IMG/VR virus record: IMGVR_UViG_3300007963_000054
Span: 1-22,384 of that record
Length of the DNA stretch: 22,384 nt
Source: a virus
Reading direction: 5' to 3' (one strand)
Position numbers and translations under genes: made by a program
The notes under the pieces: model-generated
What the model was told of the DNA's origin: nothing
What the model saw: the letters and a program-made list of their open reading frames with translations, nothing else
The model's database searches: none
Part shown: positions 1 through 22,384 of the stretch, piece after piece
How positions within the stretch are numbered: position 1 is the stretch's first letter
How the letters are laid out: the number at the start of each line of letters is the position of its first letter

Positions 1-1053
1 CCAGAAAGTATTGCTTCTATAAAATATAATGCACCTTTGGATTATGCTGCTCAAGGAAGGTGTGTTACTACTGAAGATTATAAGGTTGTTGTTAAAGGTC
101 TATACAACGATACGAAATCATTACAGGTGTGGGGTGGTGAGAGCGGTTCTTATGATACAAGTCTTGGAGTTGTGGATACTAAAGAATATGGTAAGGTTTT
201 TATTTCAATTAAATCTACCACAGGACAAATGCTCACAAAACAAGAAAAAAATGAAATTGTCGTAGGACTTGCAACGTATAAAGTTGCAGGCATAACACCA
301 GTTGTGGTTGATCCAGAAACAACGAAATTGATATTGAATACTACGTTTAAATATGATTCTAGTAAAACAACGGAAACTAATTCTAGTCTTGTCACTCTTG
401 TTACTAATACACTAACAACATACAACACAGATAACCTTAGTCAGTTTGATGGGATTTTCAGATTATCCAAAGTTCAAAGACTCATAGATGAAACAAATTC
501 TTCATTGTTAAGTAATATTACAACTGTAACTATTGCAAATACAATTACTCCTACTTTAAATTCAGCAACTTCTTATACATCAACCTTTAATAATGCTTTC
601 TATGCTCCGTATTCTGGTTACAATAAAGAAAAGGGTGGAGTGATTGCAACAACTGGCTTTAAAATACAGGGTGATACAGTTAATACAATGTTTTTTGATG
701 ATGATGGTGAGGGCAATTTAAGAATGTATTATCTTGTTGCTGGAGCTAGAGTTTACCAATTAATTAACGGAACTACTACTGTAGGAACAGTGGATTATGT
801 TAAAGGTACTGTAAAAACTGTTAGTCTTACCATTACAGATATAGGCAATGTGGATGGTGCAACTTCTACATCAATTCGCATTACAGCAATACCTAGTTCA
901 AATGATATAGTACCAGTTAGAAATCAGCTATTGGAAATTGATTTTGTCAATTCAGTTATAACAGGTGAGGTTGACACTATCGCTGTCAGTGATGCCAGTG
1001 CTGGTTCTACTTATCAAACAACTTCATCCGTAACATCAACATCGAGCTACTAA
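1..1053 (+). CDS. 6: Baseplate wedge subunit gp6 (T4-like), C-terminal part; 5' end outside window
   Basis: The reading frame is open from base 1 and ends at TAA 1051-1053, so the gene begins before the window and about 350 residues are visible. In T4, gp6 forms the inner ring of the baseplate wedge and carries a baseplate-J-like fold. Visible family features are the segment around 'NAPLDYAAQGRCVTTEDYK' (nt 31-93), equivalent to the T4 stretch in which an aromatic/Gln-rich loop precedes 'AVTAEDY'. 'VWGGE' (nt 127-141) and 'YGKVFISIK' (nt 187-213) follow, then the 'GITPVVVDP' strand and the 'LSQFDGIFRLSKVQRLID' segment near nt 436-490. The TTG at 37 is not a real start, because the conserved sequence continues upstream of it. 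The last ~20 residues are Ser/Thr-rich. The next gene starts one base after the stop, which suggests coupled translation. The family call is by recognition of these motifs and is strong. Confidence 0.9.
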   Translation, partial: PESIASIKYNAPLDYAAQGRCVTTEDYKVVVKGLYNDTKSLQVWGGESGSYDTSLGVVDTKEYGKVFISIKSTTGQMLTKQEKNEIVVGLATYKVAGITPVVVDPETTKLILNTTFKYDSSKTTETNSSLVTLVTNTLTTYNTDNLSQFDGIFRLSKVQRLIDETNSSLLSNITTVTIANTITPTLNSATSYTSTFNNAFYAPYSGYNKEKGGVIATTGFKIQGDTVNTMFFDDDGEGNLRMYYLVAGARVYQLINGTTTVGTVDYVKGTVKTVSLTITDIGNVDGATSTSIRITAIPSSNDIVPVRNQLLEIDFVNSVITGEVDTIAVSDASAGSTYQTTSSVTSTSSY

Positions 1054-1054
1054 A

Positions 1055-4000
1055 ATGTCACCATTTGATAACCCATATGCACTGACCTCAGAGCTAGAAA
1101 ATAAAATTAGTACTCAGCTGTCTGGCCAGATGCCGATGTTTGTTACTGATGAACATCCACTATTTGTAAAATTTTTAAAATATTACTATGAGTTTTTAGA
1201 AGCTGGTGAACTTACATTAATTGCGACCATAGATAACATTGCTCAAGAAACAGCTGCTTCAAATCTCATACTTGATGAAAATGGTGAGAAGATTGTTACA
1301 GAGAGGGGTGCTGGTACTCTTACAAAATTTGTAATTGGTGAAACAATAACTGGTGGTACTTCTAACGCAACTGCAAAAGTACTTGCTGAAGATTTAGCAA
1401 ATGGTAAAGTTTTTATAACTGCAAAAACTCAATTCATTAATGGTGAAACTGTAACAGGAGGAACTTCTAGTTCAACAGGTACAGTAACCAAATATAGAGC
1501 AAACCCTATACAAAATATTCAACAGTTGTTATCTTATGCTGATGTTGATAATACGATATATGATTTTCTAGATCAGCTTCGTGATTCTTTTATGAATTCT
1601 ATTCCAAAGAAACTTGCTGATGGAGTAGACACAAGAAACTTAGTTAAAAACATAAGAGAATTATACAGAGCGAAAGGTACTTCAGAAGGTCATAAAATTT
1701 TTATGAAGATGCTTCTTGGAGAATCTGCTGAAGTATTTTATCCAAATACTCGTATGATGCGTGTTTCTGACGGTAAGTGGAATCTAGTAACAAAAATAAG
1801 ATGCTCTCCCGGCAATAATGTTGAAGCTTCAGAGGTTGTGAATAGAACTCTTACTGGGCAAACTTCTGGTGCAACAGTTGTCATAAGTAATGCTGCAACT
1901 TTTTCTGAAACTGCTGATCCTATCATAGAGTTTGAGGTTGATGCTTCATCTCTTGTTGGAACTTTTGTTAATGGCGAAGTCTGTAAAGCTGTATCAAAAG
2001 AAACTGGTTATAATTATGATTTTACCATTAGACAGATTGTTAATGGTTTTACTTTAACAAATAATGGTATTTTATATTCTGTTAATGATCTTTTAGATAT
2101 TGATAGCAATACTGCGATAGGTAATGGTCTTGCTGCAGCTAAAGTTAAAACTATTAAGTCGGGTAGTATTTTTGATATTGTTGTTGATGATGCTGGAACA
2201 GGCTATAGAGAAGGTGAACCTCTTGTATTTACAACTTCAGAGGATGATGTGGATACTGCTACAGGTGTTGTTTCCATTCTTGAAGGCTCGTTACTATTAG
2301 ATGGTACAGCAGAAGTTTTAGACAATGGTGTTACGCAAACTTCAACGGATGCTGGAGACTTCATAGTTCTAGAAGAGGGTTCTGTTTTTCATGAAAATGA
2401 ATGGTCATTCGTATTAGAAGATGGTACACTCAATGCTCCATATGCGGTATATGGAATTGATATCTCATATAGTGATACAAAAGGTTATTATTATCCTCTT
2501 TATCTTAATCTTCAAGATGCTGAAAGCTCAACTATAACAAAAGCAAAAGCAACCACTAACGGAAAAATAACTGATTCAAAAACTTTGGTTCTAGATGGTA
2601 ATAGTGGAACTATTGCAGTTGATATGGTGGTCTTTGGTGAGGGCCTCGATCCTAGTGCAACTATCAAAGTTGCAACTGTAACAGATCAAAATAATATAAT
2701 TTTGGATACAACAGTAACACTTGCTGATGATGTTGTATTATCTTTTAGATCAATTAAAACAGCAGTTCATACTCATAAATTTTTAGAGTTTCCTAACGAA
2801 ACTTTTTATATGCCATCTTCATCAACTAATCATCATAAGGACAGTTATGATTCCAGTACATATGATTTATATGTGAAACATTTACGATTAGATAGCACTG
2901 AGATTGCTGGTTATTCAGAAGCATCTGGCAGTCGTATTGCAGCAGAGTATGGAACTTCCAGACCTGTATCAAGAGATACTTACGGAACCAGTGCAGATAG
3001 AATTGGTCTTGAAGAAGGTTCTACAACAACTGAATCCAGTAGAGGAAGTATTGGTAGAGCAGTAGTAACTGATTCTGGTGGTGGTTATACTTCGTTACCA
3101 ACCGTTTCAGTATCAACTGGTGACGGTACAAGCACAAAACTACTAGCAACTACAACCGACATTGGAGGTGTTGATAGTGTTGAATTAACCAATATTGGTT
3201 TCAAATATTTTGAAGCACCGCAATCTGATTTTAGGGCAAACTTTGTTCTTAAAGATGTAACAGGAACATTTGCTGTAGATAATACGTTAACCACACACAC
3301 AGGAACGGTTAGAAGTTGGAATTCTAATACACAGGTTCTACAAGTAAGCATAGAAGATAATATAAGAGTTGCACTTAATATTCCTTCTTCAATTGCTATT
3401 GGTTTGGAAGATGGGCTTATTACCCACAATTCTGCTGATGGGAATCAAAACCTATTACAATTAGAAAATATTCTTGATGAAGGTGATCAGATAGTTGATG
3501 CTGATGGCAATCGAATTGTTACAGATGCTTTAGGAACGAGTGATGAATATCTTGTATTAGAATCTGGAAATGGGGAAACTGCTGGTAGTGCTATTATAAT
3601 GGAATCTGAGGATGCAACATATTTTCCACCTATTTCATTAGAATCTGCAACGGATACAACTGATGATGGCGGACATATCGTAAATGAAGGTTCTAGTGAT
3701 AACATTCTTACAGAGACAGCTGTATCAAAGGGTGATTCAACTGGTGGGCAACAAAATCAAAGAATATTAACAGAGTCATCCCAAAGAACTGAAGATGATT
3801 TTGGACCAATTGATTCTACTGATAATTTAACAGAAATCCGTGAGCTTGGCAGTGTATTTAATATCGGGGAACCTTTAAAATTTAATGGTGCAATCGTTGA
3901 GATTGGTGGTGCAATTCTTTTAGATGGTACAGATGCAAGTGGTACGGATGGCGGTAGTCAAATCCAGCATGAAGCTTTTGATGAAAGTAACAGTATTATT

Positions 4001-6391
4001 ATTAACGGCACGGATTCTGATTTATCAGATGCAAATGACGAGATTATATTAGAGTCTGGTTCTTTACCATCAGCTGGCAGTGTTGCGATTGATGGAACAA
4101 ACAGTTCCAGTTTTCATGCTGGTGATAATATTATTAATGAAGCAACTGGTATAGATTATTCTGCTGGAACAACAGTCATAACCGATAGTGGTGGAGCATC
4201 TGGAACGATTGTTAATGCTGATGTTGCAAAAGGTAATTTGTCTGTTGGTGTGACTACTGAAACATATGGTTCTTACGGAACTGATGTTGCCAGTCGTATC
4301 AGTGAAGATTTAATCCGTATACAGGATTCATATTATTATCAAGATTTTTCCTATGAGGTGCAAACTGCATCTGGAACAAATAGTTACATAAACGAACTTA
4401 GAAAAGCAGTACATCCAGCTGGATTTGTACCATTTGGTAAAGTTAGTATAGCAAGTTCTATTTCTGCTGCTATAGGAACGGTTGGTTCTAGTCTTGGTGG
4501 CGGTTATACTTCCGATACCGATACCTATTCACCGATACTTGCTTCCACTCTTGAAGTTATATTCTCTGAGACAATGCAACGCAGACTTAAAGCTATTGAT
4601 ATTGGTATTGGTAGTTTTGAAGAAGCAATTATATTGGAAAGTGAAGAGAACGCAAATAATGTTGGTGACACCATTGTTCTGAATGGTACAGATTCTTCAA
4701 GCACTAATGCTGGGGATTCCATACTAGCAGAAACACAACTTTTTGTTTTCCCCGACTTTGAGGGTATAGAACTTGAACATCAAACAGATACGAGTGCTGG
4801 TGGATACGGCCGTGTCATTCTTAATGGAACAGATGCATCATCTTCTAATGCTGGTGATATAATAATATCTGAAAGTGCAGAGGCATTATCAAACAATCTG
4901 GTTCTTGATAGTTATGAGGACAGTAATCATTTTGTAAGAACTGATGCTGGTAGTGACATATTATTAGATGGAACAGATTCAAGCTCTAGTAATTCTGGCA
5001 GTGCGATAGAATTAGAAGACCCTGTTTCTGACGGTAATGTAAAAATTGGTTTACAGACAATTGATAAAGATAAATTGTCAACACTTCTAAATGAAGATGG
5101 TGGAGATCAACAACTTGAAACCGCATTTGAGGGGGATGGACCAGATCACGAAACAGCTATAGTTTCCTTTATAAGCAGAAGAATTCAAATAGCAGATGCT
5201 CTACCAAGACATCTTTCCACTGGTGCTGTTACAATTGCAAGAGCAGGGTTTTCTAAAAGGGGTTCCATAGAACTAGAAGGTGCTCAAGAAAAAGGTAAAC
5301 TGTTAATTAATCTTGCTGAAACTGAAAGTGTAACTTATGCAACGCATACACATTCTGCTGGAGAAGGTTTTGCATTAGAGGATGGTACAGACCTTGATAG
5401 AGATAATTCATTTAGTTTTGTAGATATTGATAACTATCGAAATGATAAAATTGTTTTAGATGGACATAACGATTTGATTATTTTAAATGGCACTGATGGT
5501 AGTTCTTCTAATGCTGGTGATAATCTTATTTTAAATGCTACTGATGGTAGCGCTTCTAACGATGGAAGTAACATAGTATTTGATTCTGAATTTACAACTG
5601 GTCATAATATTTTGACAGAAGATGCTACAGATGCAAATTCCAGTGCCGGTGCTGATATTTTAGTTACCGAAGATATTTTTAGTGGCTCAGTATTCTTAGA
5701 TAATATTCAACGTAGTGATTTGATACTTATGGATGATGCTATCACGGATGCTACAGGTGGTAAAAGAAATAGTGATATAGATGGAACAGCAATTCTTTTG
5801 GAAGGAAGTGCTGGCACAGTCGCATGTAGACAAGAAGATGGAACACAAGTTGCGACCACATTTGGAGATCGTATTTTACTTGAGGGAGGTATTGGTTGGA
5901 ATGATCAATTAATGATAGATGTTCCTGATAGAATTGCAGCAGAAGAGGGTAGTAATAAGGGAACAATACCATTTAAAAATTATACCATATCAAAAACAGA
6001 ACCTTTAACAAGATCAGCTGAAATTAAAGGTCGAGATATAGGTCAGATATCATTAGAGGATGAAGCAGATGAAGTAACTAACATTAGGTTAGAAGGTCAT
6101 GGAGATGCTACAGGTATTATCATAATGAATGGTATCAACATAAGTTCTGAAGAAGAAGGTAATCCTATAGCAATGGAAAAACCTCATGATATTCCAATAC
6201 ATCATGGAACAGGTAGTGTTATTCTTAATGGTACTGATGGTAGTTCTACTAATGCTGGTGATCAAATAACATTTGAAGCAGGAACATTTGAAGAATTTGA
6301 AAGAAACTTCCCAACTCTTGTTCCTGCCCGTTGGGATTCAAAAAATACTACGTTTGATACGACTAATATAACATTTGATAACATAGATTAA
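1055..6391 (+). CDS. Large repetitive baseplate/tail structural protein (1778 aa), between gp6 and later baseplate genes
   Basis: The protein is very large and has a conserved head and a repetitive body. Residues ~27-50 ('MPMFVTDEHPLFVKFLKYYY' and on) and ~203-243 ('LYRAKGTSEGHKIFMKMLLG', then 'MMRVSDGKW') match the N-terminal region I know from large structural proteins of marine T4-like phages. That region probably anchors to the baseplate. Between them lie two 'GETxTGGTS' beta motifs (nt ~1327-1500). Residues ~570-610 hold a His-rich stretch ending 'YDLYVKHLRL'. From about residue 955 on there are some ten degenerate NGTD..S.NAGD units. The C-terminus reads 'VPARWDSKNTTFDTTNITFD'. The position after gp6 is that of T4 gene 7, but I see no direct gp7 signature, so I leave the symbol empty. 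ATG 1055 is one base after the gp6 stop and has no strong Shine-Dalgarno, consistent with coupling. A structural role is likely; whether it is a wedge or a fibre protein is unclear. Confidence 0.75.
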   Translation: MSPFDNPYALTSELENKISTQLSGQMPMFVTDEHPLFVKFLKYYYEFLEAGELTLIATIDNIAQETAASNLILDENGEKIVTERGAGTLTKFVIGETITGGTSNATAKVLAEDLANGKVFITAKTQFINGETVTGGTSSSTGTVTKYRANPIQNIQQLLSYADVDNTIYDFLDQLRDSFMNSIPKKLADGVDTRNLVKNIRELYRAKGTSEGHKIFMKMLLGESAEVFYPNTRMMRVSDGKWNLVTKIRCSPGNNVEASEVVNRTLTGQTSGATVVISNAATFSETADPIIEFEVDASSLVGTFVNGEVCKAVSKETGYNYDFTIRQIVNGFTLTNNGILYSVNDLLDIDSNTAIGNGLAAAKVKTIKSGSIFDIVVDDAGTGYREGEPLVFTTSEDDVDTATGVVSILEGSLLLDGTAEVLDNGVTQTSTDAGDFIVLEEGSVFHENEWSFVLEDGTLNAPYAVYGIDISYSDTKGYYYPLYLNLQDAESSTITKAKATTNGKITDSKTLVLDGNSGTIAVDMVVFGEGLDPSATIKVATVTDQNNIILDTTVTLADDVVLSFRSIKTAVHTHKFLEFPNETFYMPSSSTNHHKDSYDSSTYDLYVKHLRLDSTEIAGYSEASGSRIAAEYGTSRPVSRDTYGTSADRIGLEEGSTTTESSRGSIGRAVVTDSGGGYTSLPTVSVSTGDGTSTKLLATTTDIGGVDSVELTNIGFKYFEAPQSDFRANFVLKDVTGTFAVDNTLTTHTGTVRSWNSNTQVLQVSIEDNIRVALNIPSSIAIGLEDGLITHNSADGNQNLLQLENILDEGDQIVDADGNRIVTDALGTSDEYLVLESGNGETAGSAIIMESEDATYFPPISLESATDTTDDGGHIVNEGSSDNILTETAVSKGDSTGGQQNQRILTESSQRTEDDFGPIDSTDNLTEIRELGSVFNIGEPLKFNGAIVEIGGAILLDGTDASGTDGGSQIQHEAFDESNSIIINGTDSDLSDANDEIILESGSLPSAGSVAIDGTNSSSFHAGDNIINEATGIDYSAGTTVITDSGGASGTIVNADVAKGNLSVGVTTETYGSYGTDVASRISEDLIRIQDSYYYQDFSYEVQTASGTNSYINELRKAVHPAGFVPFGKVSIASSISAAIGTVGSSLGGGYTSDTDTYSPILASTLEVIFSETMQRRLKAIDIGIGSFEEAIILESEENANNVGDTIVLNGTDSSSTNAGDSILAETQLFVFPDFEGIELEHQTDTSAGGYGRVILNGTDASSSNAGDIIISESAEALSNNLVLDSYEDSNHFVRTDAGSDILLDGTDSSSSNSGSAIELEDPVSDGNVKIGLQTIDKDKLSTLLNEDGGDQQLETAFEGDGPDHETAIVSFISRRIQIADALPRHLSTGAVTIARAGFSKRGSIELEGAQEKGKLLINLAETESVTYATHTHSAGEGFALEDGTDLDRDNSFSFVDIDNYRNDKIVLDGHNDLIILNGTDGSSSNAGDNLILNATDGSASNDGSNIVFDSEFTTGHNILTEDATDANSSAGADILVTEDIFSGSVFLDNIQRSDLILMDDAITDATGGKRNSDIDGTAILLEGSAGTVACRQEDGTQVATTFGDRILLEGGIGWNDQLMIDVPDRIAAEEGSNKGTIPFKNYTISKTEPLTRSAEIKGRDIGQISLEDEADEVTNIRLEGHGDATGIIIMNGINISSEEEGNPIAMEKPHDIPIHHGTGSVILNGTDGSSTNAGDQITFEAGTFEEFERNFPTLVPARWDSKNTTFDTTNITFDNID
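3914..6281 (+). repeat. Degenerate NGTD..S.NAGD protein repeats inside the 1055-6391 gene
   Basis: About ten to eleven units of roughly 20 codons share the pattern I-hydrophobic-L-(N/D)-G-T-D-x-S-S-x-N-A-G-D-x-I-x-x-E. They begin near nt 3914, 3994, 4083, 4673, 4816, 4960, 5478, 5528, 5611 (weak), 6121 (weak) and 6219. The best-preserved are those at 4673, 4816, 5478 and 6219. Spacing is irregular (about 50 to 530 bases), so this is not a simple tandem array. Codon choice differs between units, so the repeats are conserved as protein rather than as DNA. Asp/Asn-rich turns between short strands suggest a beta structure that may bind calcium; this is inference. The same motif recurs once in the DUF4815 gene near nt 12658-12770. 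Confidence 0.8.
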
Positions 6392-6395
6392 TCGT

Positions 6396-6403
6396 TATAA
6401 ATA
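6396..6403 (+). promoter_or_regulatory. T4-type late promoter element TATAAATA for the gp10-like gene
   Basis: This is a perfect match to the T4 late -10 element, recognised in T4 by RNA polymerase carrying gp55 with the gp33 co-activator and gp45 clamp. By T4 geometry the transcript would start near 6409. That leaves a short leader with a good Shine-Dalgarno (AGGAAG, 6416-6421) five bases before ATG 6427. The element lies in one of the few true intergenic gaps, just after the stop of the 1778-residue protein, which favours function over chance. Confidence 0.75.
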
Positions 6404-6426
6404 ATAAAGAATAAAAGGAAGTAAGG

Positions 6427-6699
6427 ATGGCATATCAATCACTTAATATAGGAACAACAGGTGGTGACGGCACTGGTGATACTATTCGTGTCGGTGGTGA
6501 TAAAATCAATGATAACTTTTCAGAGATTTATACCCTTTTAGGTGATGGAACTGATCTTAGTAGTGGTATAAGTGCTACTGCAAGTGTAATCACCTTAACC
6601 TCGCCAACTATAACCACACCAACAATTGCAGAAATTGATTCAGGCTCTACCATCACTTTGGATGCAACCACTGATATTGTTCTTGATGCAGACGGTTGA
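6427..6699 (+). CDS. gp10-like baseplate fibre protein, N-terminal fragment (90 aa) ending at an in-frame TGA
   Basis: Residues 3-40 ('YQSLNIGTTGGDGTGDTIRV' followed by 'GGDKINDNFSEIYTLLGDGTD') match the N-terminus of T4 gp10, which has NIG..DDGTGD..R.GG.KINENFDELY. In T4 gp10 and its relatives this part attaches the fibre to the baseplate. A good ribosome site precedes the ATG (AGGAAG at 6416-6421). The frame meets TGA at codon 91 (6697-6699). The same frame then continues open to 8568, and the sequence directly after the stop (D-I-F-F-K-D-D-G-T-T-F-G) continues the fibre-repeat pattern. I therefore read 6427-8568 as one gene of 713 sense codons with one interrupting stop: a nonsense mutation, a base error, or a stop that is read through. 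If the stop is real, only a 90-residue anchor piece is made. Confidence 0.85.
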   Translation: MAYQSLNIGTTGGDGTGDTIRVGGDKINDNFSEIYTLLGDGTDLSSGISATASVITLTSPTITTPTIAEIDSGSTITLDATTDIVLDADG

Positions 6700-6759
6700 G
6701 ATATCTTTTTTAAGGATGATGGAACTACGTTTGGCTCTGCAACAAATACTTCTGGTAAT

Positions 6760-8568
6760 TTGATCATCAAATCTGGTACAACAACAGCTGCAACATTTAG
6801 TGGTGCCAATGTAACACTTGCTGGTACTGTTGCCTCTACTGGTGTTCTTACTGCTAATGCTGGCGTGGTAATAGATAATTTTACAATTGATGGTGCAGAG
6901 ATTGATCTATCTTCTGGTGATTTAGAAATTGATGTTGCCGGAGATATAACACTTAATGCAGATGGTGGTGATTGGAACTTTAATGACGATACTGCATCAA
7001 TATTAAAAATTACTAATAGTTCAGGCGATGTTATTTTTAAACCAACCACAGACGCAAAAGATATTATTTTTCAACAGTATGATGGAACGGAAGTTGCAAG
7101 AATAGAAGACGGTGTTCAACTTAATGTAAGTGCAACTACAGCATCCTCAAGCACCACAACTGGTGCGTTGATTGTTGGTGGAGGTGCTGGTATTGCTGCT
7201 GACCTTTCTGTTGGAGATGATATTAATCTTCTCTCAGATAGTGCAGCTATATTTTTTGGTGCTGATAAAGATATTGTGGTTTCCCATAATGCTGATGTCG
7301 GGCTGTTTATAAAAAATGCAAATACTGGTGATGATAAACCAATTGTTCTTAATCTACAAACTGGTGAAACGGATATTCAAGCTTCTGATGTATTAGGAAG
7401 TATTAGATTTAATGCTCCAGACGAGGGCACAGGAACAGATGCCCTATTAGTTGGTGCTGCTATTGATGCTATTTCAGAAGGTAATTTTAGTTCTTCAAAT
7501 AATGCAACAAAATTAGCATTTAGAACTGGCGCAAGTGAAACTGCGACAGAGAAAATGGCTTTGACTTCTGGTGGTAATTTACAATTACCTACTGATACCA
7601 CTGTTCTTAGTTTTGGTGCAGATAGTGAGGTTACTTTAACGCACGTTCACAATACTGGTTTGCTTTTGAATAGCACAAACGTCATTCAGTTTAACGATGC
7701 AAGTCAGAATATTGGGGCTCCAAGTGCAACCGTTCTGGATATCAATGCTACAGATGAGATCGAACTTAACGCAACTCTTGCTGATGTCAATGCAAACCTA
7801 GATGTTTCTGGAACTTATACTGGTGGTGGATTGATGACCACTGGTGGAAACATTGTTATTCCAGATGCTGGAAATATTGGTTCTGCCAGTGATACGGATG
7901 CTATCGCAATTGCTTCTGGTGGGAGTGTAACATTTAGTCAGGCTCCAGTATTTCCTGATGGTTCTATTAATATTCGAGATTTGGATATTGATGGTGCTGC
8001 TGCGACATCAACTCTTGCTGATGCAGACCTGTTTATTGTTGATGACGGTGCAGGGGGAACAAACAATAAGGTAACTGCTACTAATGTAAGAGAATATATG
8101 GGTTTTGGTAGTGGTACTGTTATGTTGTTTCATCAATCTTCTGCCCCTACAGGGTGGACAAAATTAACAGCAACAAGCACTGAAGCACTTGCTGATGCAG
8201 CAATAAGGGTTATTGGAACTACTTCTTATAATGCTGGTGTGAATGGTACTGTAGCATTTGAAACCGCATTTGCAAGTAAATCTGTTGCTGGTAATATTGC
8301 TGGTAACACCGCTGCAACTACATTGCAACTTGCACAAATTCCATCTCATTCTCACTCCCTTGCTGCCAGTCCTAGTACGGCCGATAATAAACAATCTGGA
8401 GCCAAACCTACGGCAAGCAGCAATTCTGGACTTAACTCAGGTGCGAACACTGGCAGTGCTGGTAGTGGGCAATCTCATACTCATGGCGTAGGTAACTTTG
8501 CTTTTACTGGTACAGCAATTGATATGGATGTTAAATTTATTGATGTTATTGCTGCAAGTAAGGATTAA
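6760..8568 (+). CDS. gp10-like fibre/tail-collar protein, C-terminal part, continuous in frame with 6427-6699
   Basis: The frame is open from 6700. TTG 6760 is merely the first possible start and has no Shine-Dalgarno, so this is probably not an independent gene. From the N-terminal side the protein shows fibre repeats ('IIKSGTTTAATFSGANVTLA'), a 'TTGALIVGGGAGIAADLSVG' module (~nt 7150-7215), and a module ending 'NATKLAFRTGASETATEKMA' (~nt 7500-7560). Next is a copy of the ~135-residue repeat also found in the 17599-19836 gene (nt ~7590-7920). The C-terminal tail-collar domain starts at 'GTVMLFHQSSAPTGWTKL' (~nt 8116) and carries 'IPSHSHS' and 'QSHTHGVG', His-x-His pairs of the kind that bind metal in T4 gp12 and gp37. 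It ends 'MDVKFIDVIAASKD'. The likely role is a baseplate-attached short fibre or adhesin. Without its N-terminal anchor the product would probably not assemble. Confidence 0.8.
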   Translation: MIIKSGTTTAATFSGANVTLAGTVASTGVLTANAGVVIDNFTIDGAEIDLSSGDLEIDVAGDITLNADGGDWNFNDDTASILKITNSSGDVIFKPTTDAKDIIFQQYDGTEVARIEDGVQLNVSATTASSSTTTGALIVGGGAGIAADLSVGDDINLLSDSAAIFFGADKDIVVSHNADVGLFIKNANTGDDKPIVLNLQTGETDIQASDVLGSIRFNAPDEGTGTDALLVGAAIDAISEGNFSSSNNATKLAFRTGASETATEKMALTSGGNLQLPTDTTVLSFGADSEVTLTHVHNTGLLLNSTNVIQFNDASQNIGAPSATVLDINATDEIELNATLADVNANLDVSGTYTGGGLMTTGGNIVIPDAGNIGSASDTDAIAIASGGSVTFSQAPVFPDGSINIRDLDIDGAAATSTLADADLFIVDDGAGGTNNKVTATNVREYMGFGSGTVMLFHQSSAPTGWTKLTATSTEALADAAIRVIGTTSYNAGVNGTVAFETAFASKSVAGNIAGNTAATTLQLAQIPSHSHSLAASPSTADNKQSGAKPTASSNSGLNSGANTGSAGSGQSHTHGVGNFAFTGTAIDMDVKFIDVIAASKD

Positions 8569-8580
8569 TAGGAGAATAGA

Positions 8581-8955
8581 ATGAGAGTTCAAATAATGCC
8601 CGCAGATGATATGGTTTCTATGGGCGACCATGCATTTAATGATTTTGATATGTCGGAAGTGCCCGGCTATCCAGATTTTCCTACAGGTTCTATACATTGT
8701 ATTCATTGGGATACAGACTTGGGCCAAGGAGAAGTAGAATTTTCTGATGATCCTTTTGATGACATTGAGTGCCCAAACAATGAAAAGATAACAACACTAC
8801 CAGATTGGGCAAATAAATTAATTGCAGCACATGGGCGTAAGTTAATAGAATGGGAAGAAGAACAAATTGCAGAAGATGAACCAGAAGAAAGAGAACTACC
8901 AAACAGGGTATTAGTAAGGAGATTAGAAGCGTTAGAACAACTTAACGACTCTTAA
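8581..8955 (+). CDS. Small acidic protein, possible fibre-assembly helper
   Basis: The product is 124 residues. The start has a clear Shine-Dalgarno (AGGAG, 8570-8574) six bases upstream and the gene follows the collar gene by 12 bases. The middle, 'IHCIHWDTDLGQGEVEF' (residues ~38-54), resembles a short segment seen in many small phage proteins encoded next to tail fibres ('HAVQW....GEVEF'). The C-terminal third is a charged Glu-rich helix ('LIEWEEEQIAEDEPEERELP') that could form a coiled coil. Position after a collar-type adhesin and this architecture suggest a tail-fibre assembly chaperone or similar factor; that is inference from context. No membrane segment or signal peptide is visible. 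Confidence 0.6.
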   Translation: MRVQIMPADDMVSMGDHAFNDFDMSEVPGYPDFPTGSIHCIHWDTDLGQGEVEFSDDPFDDIECPNNEKITTLPDWANKLIAAHGRKLIEWEEEQIAEDEPEERELPNRVLVRRLEALEQLNDS

Positions 8956-8978
8956 AAATATATTATGGAAAGTGAAAA

Positions 8979-9305
8979 ATGGCAAAACTTGAAGTAAAGG
9001 ATAATTGTCCTTTAAATAATTTTGAAAAATGCAAGCAATGGGATTGTGCTTGGTATATACAGGTAAGAGGAAAAGACCCACAAACTGGTCAAGAAATAGA
9101 AGATTGGGGTTGTGCAGTAGCATATCTACCTATGTTGTTGATTGAAAATGTTAGAATGTCAAATCAGACAGGAGTTGCGGTAGAGAGTTTTCGGAATGAG
9201 ATGGTAAAAGATAATGCGAAGTTGCAAAGTCTTTTCTCAGACAAAGAAGAGGGAATGTTATTAGAGACAAAAAAAGTTAATAAAGGGTTATTGGAAGCAA
9301 AGTAA
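8979..9305 (+). CDS. Conserved small four-cysteine protein, function unknown
   Basis: The product is 108 residues. Cysteines at 10, 18, 23 and 45 (C-x7-C-x4-C-x21-C) lie in 'NCPLNNFEKCKQWDCAWYIQ' and 'EIEDWGCAVAYLP'. The region is rich in Trp and ends with 'VAVESFRNEMVKDNAKL'. I recognise this pattern from uncharacterised small proteins of marine T4-like phages in the same structural neighbourhood. Four cysteines could hold a zinc ion or an iron-sulfur cluster, but this is not shown. The C-terminal half looks helical and charged. The ribosome site is weak (GGAAAG-like, 8967-8972). An ATG at 8965 in another frame gives only a few codons and is not a better start. Confidence 0.7.
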   Translation: MAKLEVKDNCPLNNFEKCKQWDCAWYIQVRGKDPQTGQEIEDWGCAVAYLPMLLIENVRMSNQTGVAVESFRNEMVKDNAKLQSLFSDKEEGMLLETKKVNKGLLEAK

Positions 9306-9308
9306 CTC

Positions 9309-9316
9309 TATAAATA
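9309..9316 (+). promoter_or_regulatory. T4-type late promoter element TATAAATA upstream of gene 8
   Basis: This is a perfect TATAAATA in the 42-base gap before the gp8 gene. By T4 late promoter geometry the transcript would begin near 9322, with AGGA (9337-9340) as ribosome site and ATG at 9348. It would drive gp8 and, by the tight packing that follows, the DUF4815 gene and beyond. Confidence 0.75.
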
Positions 9317-9347
9317 TAGTTAACATTGTCAGATATAGGATAAAGAA

Positions 9348-10850
9348 ATGGCAGCAATTATCACAGAAAAATTCAGACTTCACAATGCAACTCAGTTCTA
9401 TGAGTCCTTTAGTGAAACATCAAAAAATCTTTACTATCTTATGATAGGAAAAGCTACACCCTTTACATCAACGACTTCTGGTGGTTCTGATGAATCACCC
9501 CCAACACCAGCTGATGATGTTAGTAGTAATTACTATGAATGGGACCAAACTATTGCACTTAAAAATATATCAAGTTCAGATATAACGTATACTTTGCCTC
9601 GCAGAAATTGGGCAAATGGTACGACTTATGATATGTATGAACACAACATAAGCTCTTCCAATACTACGACTTCTGGTGCAACAAATCTATACGATTCTAC
9701 ATTTTTCTTTAGAACTGCTAATAACAGGGTTTACAAAGTATTAGATAATAATGCGGGCTCTGCTTATTCTGGTGCTGAACCTACTTCTGAATCAACTTCA
9801 CCTTTTGCGATTGGTGGATATGTTCTCAAATACATGTATACAATTACTGCCTCTGAACAAACTAAATTTTTGACAACGGATTTTATGCCAGTTTCCACAG
9901 ACAGTACTGTAAGTGCAGCTGCCACAGATGGAAAGATTGAGTCACTTATAATTACTGCTGGATCAGGATATACTGCTGGAACATATTATGCAGCAGTGTA
10001 CGGAGATGGATCAAGTGCTGGTACATCCTCTGGTGCAATTGTTAGTATCGTTGTTGGAAGTGGTGGTACAATTACTTCATTTGGATTAACTGCTGGATCA
10101 GATACAACAATACACTCTGGCGGTTCTGGTTATACATATGGAACAGTAAATATTGGATCAAGTTATACATTTTCTGATGCTGCTCTTAGTAGTTCTTCCT
10201 CAATGGGAAGTGGTACAGGTGGAGCAGTTCAAGTTGTAATTAGTCCTAAAAATGGACATGGTTATAATGCTGTAGAAGAATTGGGTGGTCACTATGTTAC
10301 CTGTAGAGCAACTTTAACAGGAGCAGAAGGTGATGACGTTTTGACAGGGAATGATTTTAGAAACATTGCTATTGTCACCGATCCAACTACATACGGAACA
10401 TCTACAGTTGCTACTGCAAGTACATATCGTCAAACTTATGCAGCCAAATTAACTTCTGTATCAGGAACATTTACTGTTGATGAAAAAATATCTCAAGCAT
10501 CTACAGGAGCTATTGGTAAGGTTGTTGAGTGGGATAGTACTCTCTCGATACTTTATTATCATCAAGAAAAATATGCAGACTATGGAACAAATAGCACAAC
10601 AGGTGCTTATGTTGCTTTCTCTGGTGCAAATGCGATAACAGGTGCTTCTTCCAGCGCAGCAGGGACTCCTGATGCAGATGCTGATAGTGCGGTTACTCTC
10701 GCAGGCAATAATACAATCACATTCACAAATGGATATGCAAATCCAGAGTTGCAACCAGACAGCGGTAATATCATATACAGTGAAAACAGAAAACCAATTT
10801 CAAGAGCAACTGATCAAACTGAAGATATCAGGATAATAGTGGAATTCTAA
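9348..10850 (+). CDS. 8: Baseplate wedge subunit gp8 (T4-like), enlarged
   Basis: The C-terminal 23 residues ('SENRKPISRATDQTEDIRII' then VEF) correspond closely to the end of T4 gp8 ('MENRPPIIMAMDQTEEINIL' then FTF). The N-terminus agrees as well: 'TEKFRLHNATQFYESF' followed by 'LYYLMIGKATPFT' and 'YTLPRRNWANGTTYDMY', as in the T4 'VIPRRDWGD' region. In T4, gp8 forms a dimer in each wedge and binds gp7, gp10 and gp6. At 500 residues this version is longer than T4 gp8 (334). The surplus is mainly a Gly/Ser/Thr-rich insertion at about residues 195-300 with two 'GSGYT' motifs, and a 'GTFTVDEKISQASTGAIGKV' beta motif near residue 375. Its own late promoter and ribosome site lie just upstream. 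The TAA stop is one base before the next ATG. Confidence 0.9.
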   Translation: MAAIITEKFRLHNATQFYESFSETSKNLYYLMIGKATPFTSTTSGGSDESPPTPADDVSSNYYEWDQTIALKNISSSDITYTLPRRNWANGTTYDMYEHNISSSNTTTSGATNLYDSTFFFRTANNRVYKVLDNNAGSAYSGAEPTSESTSPFAIGGYVLKYMYTITASEQTKFLTTDFMPVSTDSTVSAAATDGKIESLIITAGSGYTAGTYYAAVYGDGSSAGTSSGAIVSIVVGSGGTITSFGLTAGSDTTIHSGGSGYTYGTVNIGSSYTFSDAALSSSSSMGSGTGGAVQVVISPKNGHGYNAVEELGGHYVTCRATLTGAEGDDVLTGNDFRNIAIVTDPTTYGTSTVATASTYRQTYAAKLTSVSGTFTVDEKISQASTGAIGKVVEWDSTLSILYYHQEKYADYGTNSTTGAYVAFSGANAITGASSSAAGTPDADADSAVTLAGNNTITFTNGYANPELQPDSGNIIYSENRKPISRATDQTEDIRIIVEF

Positions 10851-10851
10851 T

Positions 10852-13800
10852 ATGGCACAAAAAACTGATTTAAATGTAGCACCTTATTATGATGACTTTG
10901 ATGAGGATAAGAATTATCTAAGAACTCTTTTTCGACCCGGCTATGCTGTTCAAGCAAGAGAACTTACGCAGTTACAAAGTGCATTACAAAACCAGATAGA
11001 AAAATTTGGCGGTCATGTATTTACTGAAGGTGCGATGGTCATACCCGGCCAAATATCTCTTTTAACAGATTACTATTCTCTTAAACTTGCATCTACATTT
11101 GGGACAGAAACGATTGATGTATCTCAATACTTTAGTGATACAACACCAGTAACAATTACTGGTGCAACATCTGGCGTGACTGCTCAGGTAATTGGTTTTG
11201 ATGTTGCAACAACAACAGATCAACCCACACTTTACATACGGTATACAAATACAGGTACAGATACCGTTACTTCTGTATTTTCTGATGGAGAAAGTATCTC
11301 TGCTGATATTTCAGTTACACACACATCTTCGTATTCTTCTGGAGCTGCTTCGGCAACAACTTATACATCTACTTTTAATACAGAGACAGCAACTTCTACA
11401 TCATTGGCAAGTTCATCTGGTCCAGCTGCAAGAACTGGATCAGCAGTAAATATTCAAGCAGGCGTTTATTACATTCGTGGTTTCTTTGCAACGGTGACAG
11501 AACAAACTCTTGTTCTTGACAAGTATGATAATAATCCATCATACCGTGTAGGATTGACAATTACTGAGGGTCTTACAACTTCTGATGATGATACAACTCT
11601 TTTGGATAATTCAAGTGGTTCTAGTAACTTTGCTGCCCAAGGAGCGCACAGGCTTAAATTTACTTTGACACTTGCTAAGATTGCGAGAGATGCGAGCACT
11701 GATGATAGTTTTGTCGAGTTATTGGATACAAAAGCTGGTAATATCATGTCTATGGTTCGTGAGACAGAATATTCTATTTTGGGCCAAACTCTTGCTCGCA
11801 GAACCAAAGATGAGTCTGGTGACTATACAGTTCGACCATTTCAGTTTGAAGTTAAGGAAAGTATAACAACTAATAATGATACAGGTGTTTATACAAAAGG
11901 TCAAACCACTGATGATGGTGCCACTGCTGCAAACACTTTTCTTTCTATTAAGGTATCCCCCGGCAAGGCATACGTTGGGGGTTATGAAATTGAAAAGATA
12001 GGACCAACTTTTAAAGACGTACCAAAGGCACGAACCTTTGATACAGTAAATGCTGGTGTATCAACCTTTCACATGGGTAATTATGCTTTCATTGAAAATA
12101 TTTACGGCACCCCTGATATTTCTTCAGTATCAGGTGAGACAACTCCATTTAAACTTATAGAATTATATGACGCAAAAATTGCTACAAGAGGTTCTGCTGC
12201 TGGTAGTTTGGTTGGTATAGCAAGAGCACGTTCTTTAGAATATTTTGCTGGAACAGCTGGTTCAACTTCTAGTAATAATGATTCACAATATAAACTATAT
12301 TTGTTTGATCTGAAACCGATAACAAAATTAGAATTAAGTGGAACACCAGCTACACTACTTACAGCAAATCATTCTAATGGTGGTGTAAAAATTACTGATG
12401 CAACTTCTGGTGCAACAGGGTTTGTTTATGCTTCTGGTACAAGTGGAAATATCGTTAGGTTAACAAATGTCTCAGGTACTTTTTCTGCTGGTAGTAATAT
12501 AACTGCATCTGATAGAAGTGGAAATCTTGGAGTGACAATTACAAATGTCCATAATTATGAATTCAGAGATGTTGCTTCGGTATATATGAGCGATCCTGAT
12601 ACGGGACAAGATTTCACTGCTGATGTGATTGCTACGAAAGTAGCTGGTCTTGCTGGTTCTATTACTATGAATGGAACTGATGCTAATGGTGCTAATGCGA
12701 ATGACAATATATTGTTAGATGGGTCTGCAGCTGGAGGTGCTGATCAATTTGGTGAGATAGAATTAGAAACCGGCCTTGCATCAAAGCAACCTAAACTTCA
12801 AGACCCTGATATAAATAAATCTTTAGTGAGTCTTTCTAAAAGCGCAATTAAAACACTGTTGACAGAAGATAATAATGGGTTAACCGATACTCAATATACG
12901 ATTAGAAGGCAGTTTGTGGGAACAACAAACTCTTCTGGTGCTGTGTCATTCAGTGCTGGTGCAAACGAAACCTTTGTTGCTCATGCAGAAAAAGATTACA
13001 CTGTTTCGGTTCTTACCTCTGGTGGTGGTTCTGCAAGTCAAGGTGACTTGATTAGTATTGCATCAACCATGTCTGGTGCTGGTACTGCCGTTCTTACAAT
13101 TACAGATAGTACTTTGCTAGGTAATGCTGCAAAGGTGAAGGTATTTGCAACAATTCTAAAAACAAGTGTTAATCATAAAATTAAAACTACACAATTAATG
13201 AAACAGGTAAAAGTAGTATCTGGAACTTCTGATGCTTTTGGAACTCGACCAACAGATGAAACTATTTCTCTTGGTCGTGCAGATTCGTTTAAACTTGTTG
13301 CGGTCTATGATTCAGAAGGCACTTCTACAGATGCTGTTGCACCAACATTAACAACAGGTTCAACCACTGGTACATTTACCCGTGGTGAGAAAATAACTGG
13401 CTCTTCAAGTGGAGCAACTGGTAGACTTATTACTACTTCAAGCCCATTTCAATATGTACTAACAAGCACTGGAACTTTTACTGATACAGAAACCATAACA
13501 GGAGATAGCTCTGGTGCAACCGCTGTCATATCTTCTCAAACTGATGGAAGCAAGGTTTTAACCAGCAATTATCTTTTAGATACTGGACAAAGAGATAACT
13601 ATTATGATATTTCAAGAATAGTGAGAAAACCAAATGTGTCTTCTCCCACAGGTAGATTGCTTATTGTGCATGATTATTTTGAACATGGAGCTGGAGATAT
13701 TTTAACAGTAGATTCTTACTCAGATATTGCTGGTCGAATGACCTTTGATGATATTCCTTTTTACAATTCTTTAAAACTTGATCCAGATGATGAAGACATT

Positions 13801-16800: not shown

Positions 16801-17367
16801 ATGGGTGGTGTAAAATCATTTGAACTTTCAGTTAAAATGACTTCAAGTGATTCATCAGTGAGTCCTGTTATTGATTTGAAACGAGCATCTGTATTAACTG
16901 TTGGCAATAGAATTAATAATGTTGATAGTTCATCTGGTGTTTATCCAACAAGTGACTATAAAGCATCGACAGAGCCAGAGGGAGATCAGAACGCAGCAAT
17001 TTATCTAACAAAACAAATTACTCTTGAACAGCCTGCTACTTCTTTAAAAGTATTGATTGCTGCATATAGACCATCGACTGCTGATATAAAAGTTCTTTTC
17101 AAAACTCTTAAATCAAATGATGCTACAGACTTTGATGAAATACCATACACTTTCTTTAATAGTGATGGTAGCCCAGATATAACAGTAGCATCTTCTGTAA
17201 GTGGTGAGTTTAAAGAATATGAATATACAGCTGGTATAACTGATGAAGGAATTGGTGATTCACTTGAAGAATATACTTCTTTTCAAGTGAAGATTGTTTT
17301 GCAGGGAACAAACTCTGCTGATGTTCCTAAGTTAAAAGATTTTAGAGCACTGGCGTTGGCGAATTGA
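10852..17367 (+). CDS. DUF4815-family virion structural protein (2171 aa)
   Basis: Residues 1-65 ('DKNYLRTLFRPGYAVQAREL', 'TQLQSALQNQIEKFGGHVFT') are the signature of DUF4815. The family core also shows 'SPGKAYVGGYEIEK' (~369-382), 'LADFIDFRPRV' (~988-998) and 'VIQRAVIPFMRSRAVSFTGH' (~1388-1407) followed by 'LFAFFDKTAVSSYV'. A large conserved domain at ~1565-1720 runs from 'ITSVDLYFFEKDASFPVTVE' to 'NRAWAMSPMEDLKFKI'. Inserted beta motifs of the 'ITG.TSGAT' type occur at ~103, ~513 and ~840-900, one NGTD-type repeat at ~604-640, and an 'IGDEILSY' module around 1777-1865. It ends 'NSADVPKLKDFRALALAN'. The protein is probably a baseplate-associated or fibre-like virion component of marine T4-like phages; its exact T4 equivalent is not certain. 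ATG 10852 follows the gp8 stop by one base with no strong ribosome site, so coupling is likely. TGA is used here as a true stop. Confidence 0.85.
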   Translation: MAQKTDLNVAPYYDDFDEDKNYLRTLFRPGYAVQARELTQLQSALQNQIEKFGGHVFTEGAMVIPGQISLLTDYYSLKLASTFGTETIDVSQYFSDTTPVTITGATSGVTAQVIGFDVATTTDQPTLYIRYTNTGTDTVTSVFSDGESISADISVTHTSSYSSGAASATTYTSTFNTETATSTSLASSSGPAARTGSAVNIQAGVYYIRGFFATVTEQTLVLDKYDNNPSYRVGLTITEGLTTSDDDTTLLDNSSGSSNFAAQGAHRLKFTLTLAKIARDASTDDSFVELLDTKAGNIMSMVRETEYSILGQTLARRTKDESGDYTVRPFQFEVKESITTNNDTGVYTKGQTTDDGATAANTFLSIKVSPGKAYVGGYEIEKIGPTFKDVPKARTFDTVNAGVSTFHMGNYAFIENIYGTPDISSVSGETTPFKLIELYDAKIATRGSAAGSLVGIARARSLEYFAGTAGSTSSNNDSQYKLYLFDLKPITKLELSGTPATLLTANHSNGGVKITDATSGATGFVYASGTSGNIVRLTNVSGTFSAGSNITASDRSGNLGVTITNVHNYEFRDVASVYMSDPDTGQDFTADVIATKVAGLAGSITMNGTDANGANANDNILLDGSAAGGADQFGEIELETGLASKQPKLQDPDINKSLVSLSKSAIKTLLTEDNNGLTDTQYTIRRQFVGTTNSSGAVSFSAGANETFVAHAEKDYTVSVLTSGGGSASQGDLISIASTMSGAGTAVLTITDSTLLGNAAKVKVFATILKTSVNHKIKTTQLMKQVKVVSGTSDAFGTRPTDETISLGRADSFKLVAVYDSEGTSTDAVAPTLTTGSTTGTFTRGEKITGSSSGATGRLITTSSPFQYVLTSTGTFTDTETITGDSSGATAVISSQTDGSKVLTSNYLLDTGQRDNYYDISRIVRKPNVSSPTGRLLIVHDYFEHGAGDILTVDSYSDIAGRMTFDDIPFYNSLKLDPDDEDIGGFPLADFIDFRPRVEDIAGASSTLSTVDEITGNSFDFYHRQFDGSGASLVDFPKPGSTVQADFEYYLPRIDLLSLNQEGRVILTSGIASAVTTFPVPPNDAMLLATLTIPAYTYRPEDVKVRRQKNQRFTMRDIGNLEARMDTIEYMTALSLLEKSAESFEVTDANGLNRFKSGFVVDNFSGHIVGDTAHADYNIAMDMESNTARPMHKTRGLFLSENATTDGERASLGYKKTGDLITLPYTEETFTEQSYATRVERVTPFLVSQWVGDLQLDPQHDEWFETEIAPELVINREGDFNATVNRLSNQLGTIWNAWETQWTGWAQNRVERSNVFALQQAGDAQIISQWGAIPTANEQRNWDDGASPWFENRTRLQRTVRQRTGTRSRTGVNTQVLVDTERESQGFRVIQRAVIPFMRSRAVSFTGHGFRPKCKLFAFFDKTAVSSYVTPKSEEYSVAGNATPVEGDVLVSNAIGKVEGTFTIPDPKISGNPKFETGDALFRLTSSSSNNTDYSAGTNTIADDVFTQGDALYTAKGILETEQETIIATRNARVVRTAVNQSEAALGEVEGGRWTVWDPLAQTFIVQQDGNENSNAGGKFITSVDLYFFEKDASFPVTVELRNVINGYPGPKILPFGSITLEPEDVNVSATAATATRFTFPSPVFVQNSVEYCIVCITKVPTYKAWIARMGEKDVGGSRTVSTQPHIGVLFKSHNNRAWAMSPMEDLKFKINTAKFDTSGSGQIPLVNDTVPAATLRLNPCVIEHASTTVKVKHPDHGMYTATNNVTIDKVKSGASTTLSGAITATDTTLTLSSGGNFDDTSGKYAVCANGLYYIKIGDEILSYTTISDNAVSGVTRGVNSTTATSHSSGATVELYNIHKVPLQEINKTHTSISNITIDGYTVSISTSPDVGSSSDTSEIGGSVATATENAMMDQMNTIIGALEFTNTEVTAEVQTTSATSVAGSQSSFSKTASASARSVLINDYYIFDTPRMIASGINETNEMGGVKSFELSVKMTSSDSSVSPVIDLKRASVLTVGNRINNVDSSSGVYPTSDYKASTEPEGDQNAAIYLTKQITLEQPATSLKVLIAAYRPSTADIKVLFKTLKSNDATDFDEIPYTFFNSDGSPDITVASSVSGEFKEYEYTAGITDEGIGDSLEEYTSFQVKIVLQGTNSADVPKLKDFRALALAN

Positions 17368-17368
17368 T

Positions 17369-17599
17369 ATGAGTAAAAATTATGTCGAAGTTGAAAACCA
17401 TCCTGATTTGGCAAGAGATATCGAAACCGGAGCTGTTGTAAATCGTAATCGTCATGCATATGAAATGGCAAAAAAACGTGCTGCAGAAGCGCAAAGACAA
17501 AGGGATGAAATAAGAAACACCACAAGGGAGATAAATAATATAAAATGCGAAATGCATGAAATTAAAAATCTTCTTAAAGAATTGATAGGGAAAGAATAA
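17369..17599 (+). CDS. Small coiled-coil protein of marine T4-like phages
   Basis: The product is 76 residues. The N-terminus 'VEVENHPDLARDIETGAVVN' followed by 'RNRHAYE' resembles short uncharacterised proteins in the same position in T4-like cyanophages ('DLVRD..T.AV.N.D..AYE'). Residues ~28-75 are a charged helix with regular hydrophobic spacing ('IRNTTREINNIKCEMHEIKN', 'LLKELI'), a likely coiled coil. The ATG starts two bases after the TGA of the DUF4815 gene with no clear Shine-Dalgarno, and its TAA shares one base with the next ATG (TAATG). Both suggest coupled translation. A structural or assembly role alongside the neighbouring fibre is plausible but not shown. Confidence 0.7.
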   Translation: MSKNYVEVENHPDLARDIETGAVVNRNRHAYEMAKKRAAEAQRQRDEIRNTTREINNIKCEMHEIKNLLKELIGKE

Positions 17600-19836
17600 T
17601 GGCAGTAACAGCAAGTTCAGTAGGGACGGGAGATACCCTCGAAACCTTTAGACAAGAGTTCAATAATGCTGTAGTTGATCTAGGAAATCTAGATAGCGCA
17701 TCAGTATCGTCTATTTCTATTTCTGCGAATAACTCTACAAATGAAACAGTTTTTCTCACATTTGTTGATGGTGCAACTGGTAATCAGGGATTGGAATCTG
17801 ATACTGGATTAACATATAATCCTTCAACTGGATTAATAACTACTGCTACTCTTACTACTACAGGACTTATTACTTCTGGTAGTAATATAGTAATTGCAGA
17901 TGCTGGAACTATTGGTAGTTCTTCTGATACAAATGCTATTGGTATTTCTTCTGGTGGTGTTGTCTCAATAACAGCAACAACCGCAAACACAAGTGCCTCT
18001 GATGGAGCATTAACTGTAGCCGGTGGTGCTGGTATTGCTGCTGATCTTTCTGTTGGTGATGACCTTAGACTTATTTCAGATGCTGCTGTTCTTAGTTTTG
18101 GTGCAGATAGTGATGTTACTTTAACACACGTTGCTGATACAGGTATTTTATTAAACAGCACAATGGCAATTCAGTTTAATGATGCGTCACAGTATATTAA
18201 TGCACCTTCCAATGCAATTTTAGATATTAATGCTACAGATGAAATTGAATTGAACGCAACTCTTGCTGATGTTAATGCAAACCTAGATGTAAGTGGTACA
18301 TATACTGGTGGTGGTTTGATGACCACAGGTGGTAATATTGTTATTCCTGATGCTGGTAATATTGGTTCTGCTTCAGATACAGATGCGATTGCAATCAGTT
18401 CTGGTGGTGTTGTTACATTTAGTCAAACACCAATATTCTCTGGTGACTTACAAATAGAAGATGACTTAATTCTAGATTCTGATGCCGCAGTTATTTCGTT
18501 TGGTGAAGATAACGAAGTTACTCTAACACATGTTGCTGATACTGGACTTCTTCTCAACAGCACCATGCAACTACAATTCAATGATGCTTCTCAGAATATT
18601 AACGCACCAAGTGCTACAGTTTTAGATATTAACGCAACGGATGAGATCGAACTTAACGCAACTCTTGCTGATGTAAACGCAAATCTAGATGTATCAGGCA
18701 CATATACTGGTGGTGGTCTTATGACTACGGGTGGTAATATCGTTATACCTGATGCTGGTAATATTGGTTCTGCTTCAGATACTAATGCAATTTCAATTTC
18801 TTCTGGCGGTGTTGTTGCAGTAACAGCAACAACTGCAAATACAAGTGCTAGTGACGGTGCATTAACTGTCGCTGGTGGAGCTGGAGTTGCAGCAGACTTA
18901 TCAGTTGGTGATGATCTTAGACTTATTTCCGATGCTGCTGTTCTCAGCTTTGGTGCAGATAGTGATGTTACTTTAACACATGTTGCTGATACAGGTATTC
19001 TTCTGAATAGCACAATGGCAATTCAGTTTAATGATGCTAGTCAGTCTATTAATGCGCCTAGCAATGCTATTCTCGACATTAACGCCACAGACGAAATCGA
19101 ATTGAACGCAACTCTGTTAGATGTTAATGCGAACATAAACGCAAGTGGAACATACACTGGTGCTGGATTGATGACCACAGGTGGTAATATAGTCATACCA
19201 GATGCAGGTAATATTGGTTCTGCTTCAGATACAGATGCGATTGCAATTTCATCAGGTGGTGTGGTAGCAATTAGTGCAACAACTGCCAATACAAGTGCAT
19301 CTGATGGTGCATTAACTGTTGCTGGTGGTTTGGGTGTTGCTGCTGATGCATCTATAGGTGATGATCTAAGATTAATTAGTGATGGTGCAGTTTTATCGTT
19401 TGGTGCTAACTCAGAAGTTACAATGACCCATGTGCATGATACGGGTCTTACTATGACGCACACTGCAACAGGCGATAACACGCCAATGGTACTACAATTG
19501 AAATCAGAAGAAGATGCGATTGTAGCCAATGAGGTTATTGCTTCTATTGAAATGGCAGCAGGTGACTCTGATGGCACAGACGGCGCAACAGTTGCTGCTG
19601 GTATTCACGCAATTGCAGAGGGTACTTTCTCTGCTAGTGCTAACGCAACCAAACTGGTTTTTACATGTGGTGTATCTGAGACTGCCGCTTCTTCTGCAAC
19701 TGCTAAGATGACACTTGCTTCAGATGGTGATTTAACTCTTGCCGGAACTGTAACTGCTGATGCAACTGCAACTCTTCTTATAAAGAACTCAAGTGGTTCC
19801 ACATTGAAAACAATTAATGGTATTGCAGCAAACTAA
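17599..19836 (+). CDS. Repeat-built tail fibre-like structural protein (745 aa)
   Basis: The N-terminus 'GTGDTLETFRQEFNNAVVDL' is a short fibre-anchor type sequence comparable in layout to the gp10-like 'GTGDTIRVGGDKINDNFSEI'. The body is made of repeats. A 'SASDGALTVAGGAGIAADLS' lead-in is followed by 'VLSFGADSDVTLTHVADTGI', then 'LDINATDEIELNATLADVNA', then 'GGNIVIPDAGNIGSASDTDA'. Three full units and a fourth partial one are seen. The C-terminal ~150 residues ('FSASANATKLVFTCGVSETA' and around) match a module in the gp10-like gene, and the protein ends 'LIKNSSGSTLKTINGIAAN'. No tail-collar or other receptor-binding C-terminal domain is visible. The composition (Ala, Ser, Thr, Gly, Asp; almost no Cys) fits a trimeric beta fibre. 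The ribosome site is AGGGAAAG (17587-17594). A fibre role is inferred from repeats and context. Confidence 0.8.
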   Translation: MAVTASSVGTGDTLETFRQEFNNAVVDLGNLDSASVSSISISANNSTNETVFLTFVDGATGNQGLESDTGLTYNPSTGLITTATLTTTGLITSGSNIVIADAGTIGSSSDTNAIGISSGGVVSITATTANTSASDGALTVAGGAGIAADLSVGDDLRLISDAAVLSFGADSDVTLTHVADTGILLNSTMAIQFNDASQYINAPSNAILDINATDEIELNATLADVNANLDVSGTYTGGGLMTTGGNIVIPDAGNIGSASDTDAIAISSGGVVTFSQTPIFSGDLQIEDDLILDSDAAVISFGEDNEVTLTHVADTGLLLNSTMQLQFNDASQNINAPSATVLDINATDEIELNATLADVNANLDVSGTYTGGGLMTTGGNIVIPDAGNIGSASDTNAISISSGGVVAVTATTANTSASDGALTVAGGAGVAADLSVGDDLRLISDAAVLSFGADSDVTLTHVADTGILLNSTMAIQFNDASQSINAPSNAILDINATDEIELNATLLDVNANINASGTYTGAGLMTTGGNIVIPDAGNIGSASDTDAIAISSGGVVAISATTANTSASDGALTVAGGLGVAADASIGDDLRLISDGAVLSFGANSEVTMTHVHDTGLTMTHTATGDNTPMVLQLKSEEDAIVANEVIASIEMAAGDSDGTDGATVAAGIHAIAEGTFSASANATKLVFTCGVSETAASSATAKMTLASDGDLTLAGTVTADATATLLIKNSSGSTLKTINGIAAN
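18058..19440 (+). repeat. Tandem in-frame repeats, ~402 and 450 bp, within the fibre gene
   Basis: Units start at the codons for 'DDLRLISD' or its equivalent: 18058, 18460, 18910 and 19360, giving spacings of 402, 450 and 450 bases (134, 150 and 150 residues). The first unit lacks the ~16-residue 'TTANTSASDGALTVAGGAG' type lead-in before the next unit begins. The fourth unit keeps the start and then diverges after about 19440 into a different C-terminal module. The encoded residues are nearly identical while many third positions differ, so selection acts on protein rather than on recent DNA duplication. A related copy is in the gp10-like gene at about 7590-7920. Confidence 0.85.
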
Positions 19837-21445: not shown

Positions 21446-22384
21446 ATGAAGATATTGGGAATTTCTGAAGGCTTTCATGATGCTGCGGTTTGTTTACTGC
21501 ATGATGATAAAATACATTATGCATCTTCCAGTGAAAGATATAGTGGCATCAAAAATGATAAATGGATTCATAAGGACCAATGGCCCACTAGTAAATTAAA
21601 TAAACCTGATGTTGTTGCATACTACGAAAAACCATTTCTCAAAAATTTAAGACGTTGGTATGCTGGTCAAAAATGTCAGAAACCAAGATTAAAATATGAT
21701 GTAAACTTTGGCCATCATGAGTCTCATGCTGCTGCTGGATATTATACTGCACCCTTTGATGATTGTAATGTTCTTGTTATAGATGCGATAGGGGAATGGG
21801 ATACTATCTCTATATGGGAAGGCAAAGATAACAAACTCAAAAAAATTAAATCTTGGAAGTATCCATATTCCCTTGGACTTCTTTACTCTGCAATTACACA
21901 TCGTATAGGGTTAAAACCCAATGAAGATGAATACATCACTATGGGCATGGCAGCATTTGGTGAGCCAAGATATGACTTGACTGAGTTATTGTGGAAAAAC
22001 AACCATAAAGGCGTGGGTCAGATATGGAGTGGTGCAAAGAATGAAGACCTTGCAGCATCCGTACAAGACCTGTACGAGAGAGAGTTTCTTAAACTCGTAG
22101 AACAATGCCCTAAAAAGAATCTTGTTATCATGGGTGGTTGTGCTTTAAATTGTGTTGCAAACTCAAAGATCAAAGACAAGAACCTTTGGATTATGCCATC
22201 ACCCGGCGATGCTGGTAGTGCATTAGGTGCCGCTGCTTTAGTGCGAAAAGAAAAAATTCAATGGAGTTCTCCATATCTTGGATACATAATATCAAGGCCA
22301 ATTGAGCCAAAAGATGTGGTTGATGAACTCTTAAAGAATAAAGTTTGCGGGATTGCAAATGGTAGAGCAGAGTTTGGTCCTAGA
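21446..22384 (+). CDS. NodU/CmcH-type carbamoyltransferase, N-terminal 313 residues; 3' end outside window
   Basis: The frame is open to the last base. Family members transfer a carbamoyl group from carbamoyl phosphate, via a carbamoyl-adenylate, to a hydroxyl group of a small molecule or sugar. Visible motifs of the Kae1-like domain are 'ILGISEGFHDAAVCLL' (H11, D12), 'ER' at 30-31, 'HHESHAA' (H90, H91, H94; the H-x3-H pair is the metal site in TobZ), 'DAIGEWDT' (113-120), 'GGCALNC' (230-236) and 'PSPGDAGSALGAA' (D255). The window ends in 'GRAEFGPR' (306-313), the start of the family's second conserved block, so the YrdC-like domain is cut off. That block comes earlier than I expect for full-size members (~570 aa), suggesting a shortened first domain. 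The ribosome site is AAGGTG (21433-21438). Related genes are known in T4-like cyanophages. The substrate could be a cell-surface sugar, a nucleotide or a modified base; the sequence does not say. Confidence 0.88.
   Translation, partial: MKILGISEGFHDAAVCLLHDDKIHYASSSERYSGIKNDKWIHKDQWPTSKLNKPDVVAYYEKPFLKNLRRWYAGQKCQKPRLKYDVNFGHHESHAAAGYYTAPFDDCNVLVIDAIGEWDTISIWEGKDNKLKKIKSWKYPYSLGLLYSAITHRIGLKPNEDEYITMGMAAFGEPRYDLTELLWKNNHKGVGQIWSGAKNEDLAASVQDLYEREFLKLVEQCPKKNLVIMGGCALNCVANSKIKDKNLWIMPSPGDAGSALGAAALVRKEKIQWSSPYLGYIISRPIEPKDVVDELLKNKVCGIANGRAEFGPR

Follow-up and report, generated by a model that had tools for sequence, protein, structure and literature searches.

How does a phage tail-fibre gene come to carry a stop codon within its first hundred codons? 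In the window, which is the whole 22,384-nucleotide stretch of viral DNA analysed here, a plus-strand tail-fibre frame at positions 6427–8568 runs from ATG to TAA over 714 codons, including the end codon, and is interrupted once, at codon 91. The initial annotation left four options for this TGA: a sequencing or assembly error, a recent host-range or defective mutant, natural UGA readthrough, and a host that reads UGA as tryptophan. The comparisons described below retain the error and the recent defective mutant, and lend no support to readthrough or to UGA as tryptophan. A literature search returned nothing directly on this point.

The interrupted frame and its product

The TGA at 6697–6699 is the only internal stop in the frame, which is open on both sides as originally reported. 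It separates a 90-residue upstream part (6427–6696), comprising the baseplate anchor and the start of the repeat region, from an open downstream part of 622 codons (6700–8568) that comprises the repeats and the tip. A strong purine-rich ribosome site, AAGGAAGTAAGG, lies ahead of the start codon at 6427, in the region 6410–6426. In the downstream part, the first common start is TTG 6760, and the scan for starts and ribosome sites detected no purine-rich site before it, in agreement with the initial reading of this part as one without its own translation signals. The parallel N-A-D-G-G-D stretch that had been noticed in the same gene is also present, at 6952–6981 (LNADGGDWNF).

Residues 1–63 of the fibre match phrog_677 (baseplate wedge tail fiber protein connector) with an E-value of 6.8e-19, and the N-terminus matches PF07880 with 41.2 bits (E-value 2.3e-10), which exceeds the curated cut-off of 25 bits and places it with the T4 gp9/gp10-type N-terminal connectors. 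The connector-family match is limited to these 63 residues and does not extend to a full-length similarity to gp10. In the part behind the stop, residues 394–599 of that part match the tail protein family phrog_5795 (E-value 3.9e-12). T4 gp10 itself was considered and rejected as the identity of the protein, since the residues beyond 63 match phrog_5795 in part and not the connectors. The earlier label “gp10-like” is thus appropriate for the N-terminal connector and not for the whole protein, and on these family matches 6427–8568 is a predicted fibre with a gp9/gp10-type N-terminal anchor rather than gp10.

The neighbourhood is that of a T4-like baseplate. Like the N-terminal domain of T4 gp9/gp10, residues 1–63 are encoded among baseplate wedge genes, with a wedge-like protein at 1055–6391 and gp8 at 9348–10850. 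In contrast to T4 gp10, the rest of the window protein forms a fibre rich in repeats that ends in a tail-protein tip, and the window copy is stopped at codon 91. The wedge-like product has 1,778 residues with many copies of a ILNGTDSSSTNAGD-type repeat, and also matches families of very large virion structural proteins. A second fibre-like gene at 17599–19836 has repeat blocks in common with 6427–8568, present in several copies and with 73–80% DNA identity; the likeness suggests that repeats have been exchanged or duplicated between the two genes. At the end of the window, an open reading frame (21446–22384) runs off the sequence and encodes a putative carbamoyltransferase that resembles the NodU/CmcH type by eye.

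The best named relatives of the fibre are the repeat-rich fibre and baseplate proteins of Pelagibacter phage HTVC008M (I899_gp062 and its neighbours), which share the LDADGGD-(F/L)-KD-GTTFGS-TN-GNLIIKSGTTT repeat type and the T4-like baseplate neighbourhood. The likeness is confined to the repeats, with approximately 50% identity over one fifth of the query. Unlike the window fibre, HTVC008M has no stop at the aligned codon.

Codon 91 in a near-identical record and in homologues

A second IMG/VR record, IMGVR_UViG_3300006928_000446, overlaps window positions 1–9701 over 9,701 bases with 99.96% identity and no gaps, and reaches 2,447 bases further upstream than the window. The two sequences differ at four positions (423, 426, 1462 and 6697). 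Three of these are silent third-position transitions (TAC/TAT, AAC/AAT and GGA/GGG, respectively), while at 6697 the TGA of the window is replaced by GGA, which encodes glycine. Of the four, only the change at 6697 is non-silent, and it alone is a transversion; the fibre frame of the second record is unbroken over 713 residues. Because this near-identical record has GGA and an open frame, the stop is not fixed in the phage population.

Scanning IMG/VR for the local sequence with any base at 6697 returned the Gly-bearing record only, and a degenerate pattern with TGA returned no match, both in scans from which the window's own record was possibly left out. Exact-pattern scans near positions 13000 and 21000 found no further records of the same population, so the record comparison is confined to the initial 9.7 kb. 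A scan of genome contigs for relatives yielded three distant ones only.

The alignment of homologues at this codon, proposed initially as a check, points to the same residue. All of the fetched relatives together gave 147 distinct homologous stretches that align with codon 91, some of them repeat units within one gene and not orthologous positions. Gly is present in 65, Ala in 29, Asp in 13 and a gap in 11, with other residues in the rest. Neither a stop nor Trp occurs at this position in any of the 147, and Gly is present in nearly all of the closest full-context matches. Together with the GGA of the near-identical record, this distribution supports the original proposal that codon 91 was once Gly and changed from GGA to TGA. 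In-frame stops in long, low-identity alignments with other fibre loci were considered as candidates for further interrupted fibre genes and rejected: all of those met in the fibre-homologue alignments mark the ends of genes, close to the start of the following gene, and the alignment had bridged the boundary.

The homologues also bear on whether the frame is really a pair of genes, one for a small anchor protein and one for a fibre that starts independently. It had been recognized from the outset that the N-terminal 90 residues might normally form a separate gene. A split arrangement was sought in the homologues and rejected, as those examined are continuous across the site and none is split at codon 91. 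The stop itself is all that speaks for two genes, against which stand this continuity and the lack of a ribosome site before TTG 6760, and we consider the arrangement extremely improbable.

Readthrough and recoding of UGA

Programmed readthrough would yield a short anchor together with occasional full-length fibres, and the downstream frame is indeed open to its normal end. However, a sense codon or a gap occupies the site in the near-identical record and in all homologues, so the stop is not conserved as a programmed one would be. No stable stimulatory structure was found downstream of the TGA (folding z = +0.96 over 121 nt). The base directly after the stop is G, whereas the leakiest UGA contexts have C at this position. 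With no relative that carries the stop and no structure behind it, the readthrough option is unsupported and highly unlikely. It is similarly hard to credit that the stop is genuine in one genotype and that low-level readthrough of UGA limits its supply of fibre, so that few baseplate sites carry one.

A phage or host that reads UGA as tryptophan is an even poorer explanation, to which we assign a negligible probability. Codon 91 alone would speak for it. Against it, TGG occurs 42 times and in-frame TGA once among 7,391 codons, instead of many in-frame TGA codons at Trp positions; the aligned residue is never Trp, being Gly in the matching record; and a tRNA scan of the window detected no tRNA gene, suppressor or other. 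UGA recoding is excluded for practical purposes. The initial annotation had argued against full recoding from the TGA at 17365–17367, which ends a 2,171-residue gene and is followed by the T-ATG of the next gene (17365–17379). The conclusion holds on codon usage and the other evidence above, but the argument itself is weak: the old frame continues past this TGA as TAT GAG TAA, with a second stop two codons on, so readthrough would add only Tyr-Glu.

Sequencing error or recent mutation

The stop at codon 91 is very probably a private one-base change in this contig, when error and defect are taken together, to judge from the aligned sequences. The locus would then be an ordinary fibre gene of a marine T4-like phage, whose product has a gp9/gp10-type anchor, presumably for attachment to the baseplate, then repeats and, at the distal end, a tip; one assembled sequence would carry a single-base change from glycine to stop. 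This change would most likely be a sequencing or consensus/assembly error; otherwise, one genotype would have recently acquired a nonsense mutation. We judge that an error is probably the case rather than a rare loss-of-function genotype.

A real nonsense mutation in a minority genotype, which may leave an anchor fragment of 90 residues in place of this fibre, and a phage that is defective or altered in host range, is possible but rather doubtful. Such a phage could perhaps survive by its other fibre genes, and the window does contain the related fibre-like gene at 17599–19836, similar in parts. Because three silent differences also distinguish the window from IMGVR_UViG_3300006928_000446, the two may be different genotypes, which would allow for a real mutation. 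On the other hand, the stop is the sole non-silent change over 9.7 kb, and it was found in no other record. A single base substituted at random in these genes would create a stop in approximately 3.7% of cases. False stops are rare, because no spurious stop occurs in 39,934 codons of gp8 in 80 homologues of the same collection, although this yardstick is still compatible with as much as roughly half a stop in a window of such length. A single stop is unremarkable in a window that was picked for having one.

The stop was correctly read from the sequence, and there is no evidence of new biology. Since the near-identical record has Gly, the locus reflects an error at one base or a private defect, not a new way of protein making. 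Its main value is as a caution: when an assembled viral contig shows a solitary in-frame stop, comparison with near-identical records should precede any proposal of readthrough or recoding. Should the T at 6697 be genuine, the window would represent a natural fibre-null phage genotype, which would be of modest interest.
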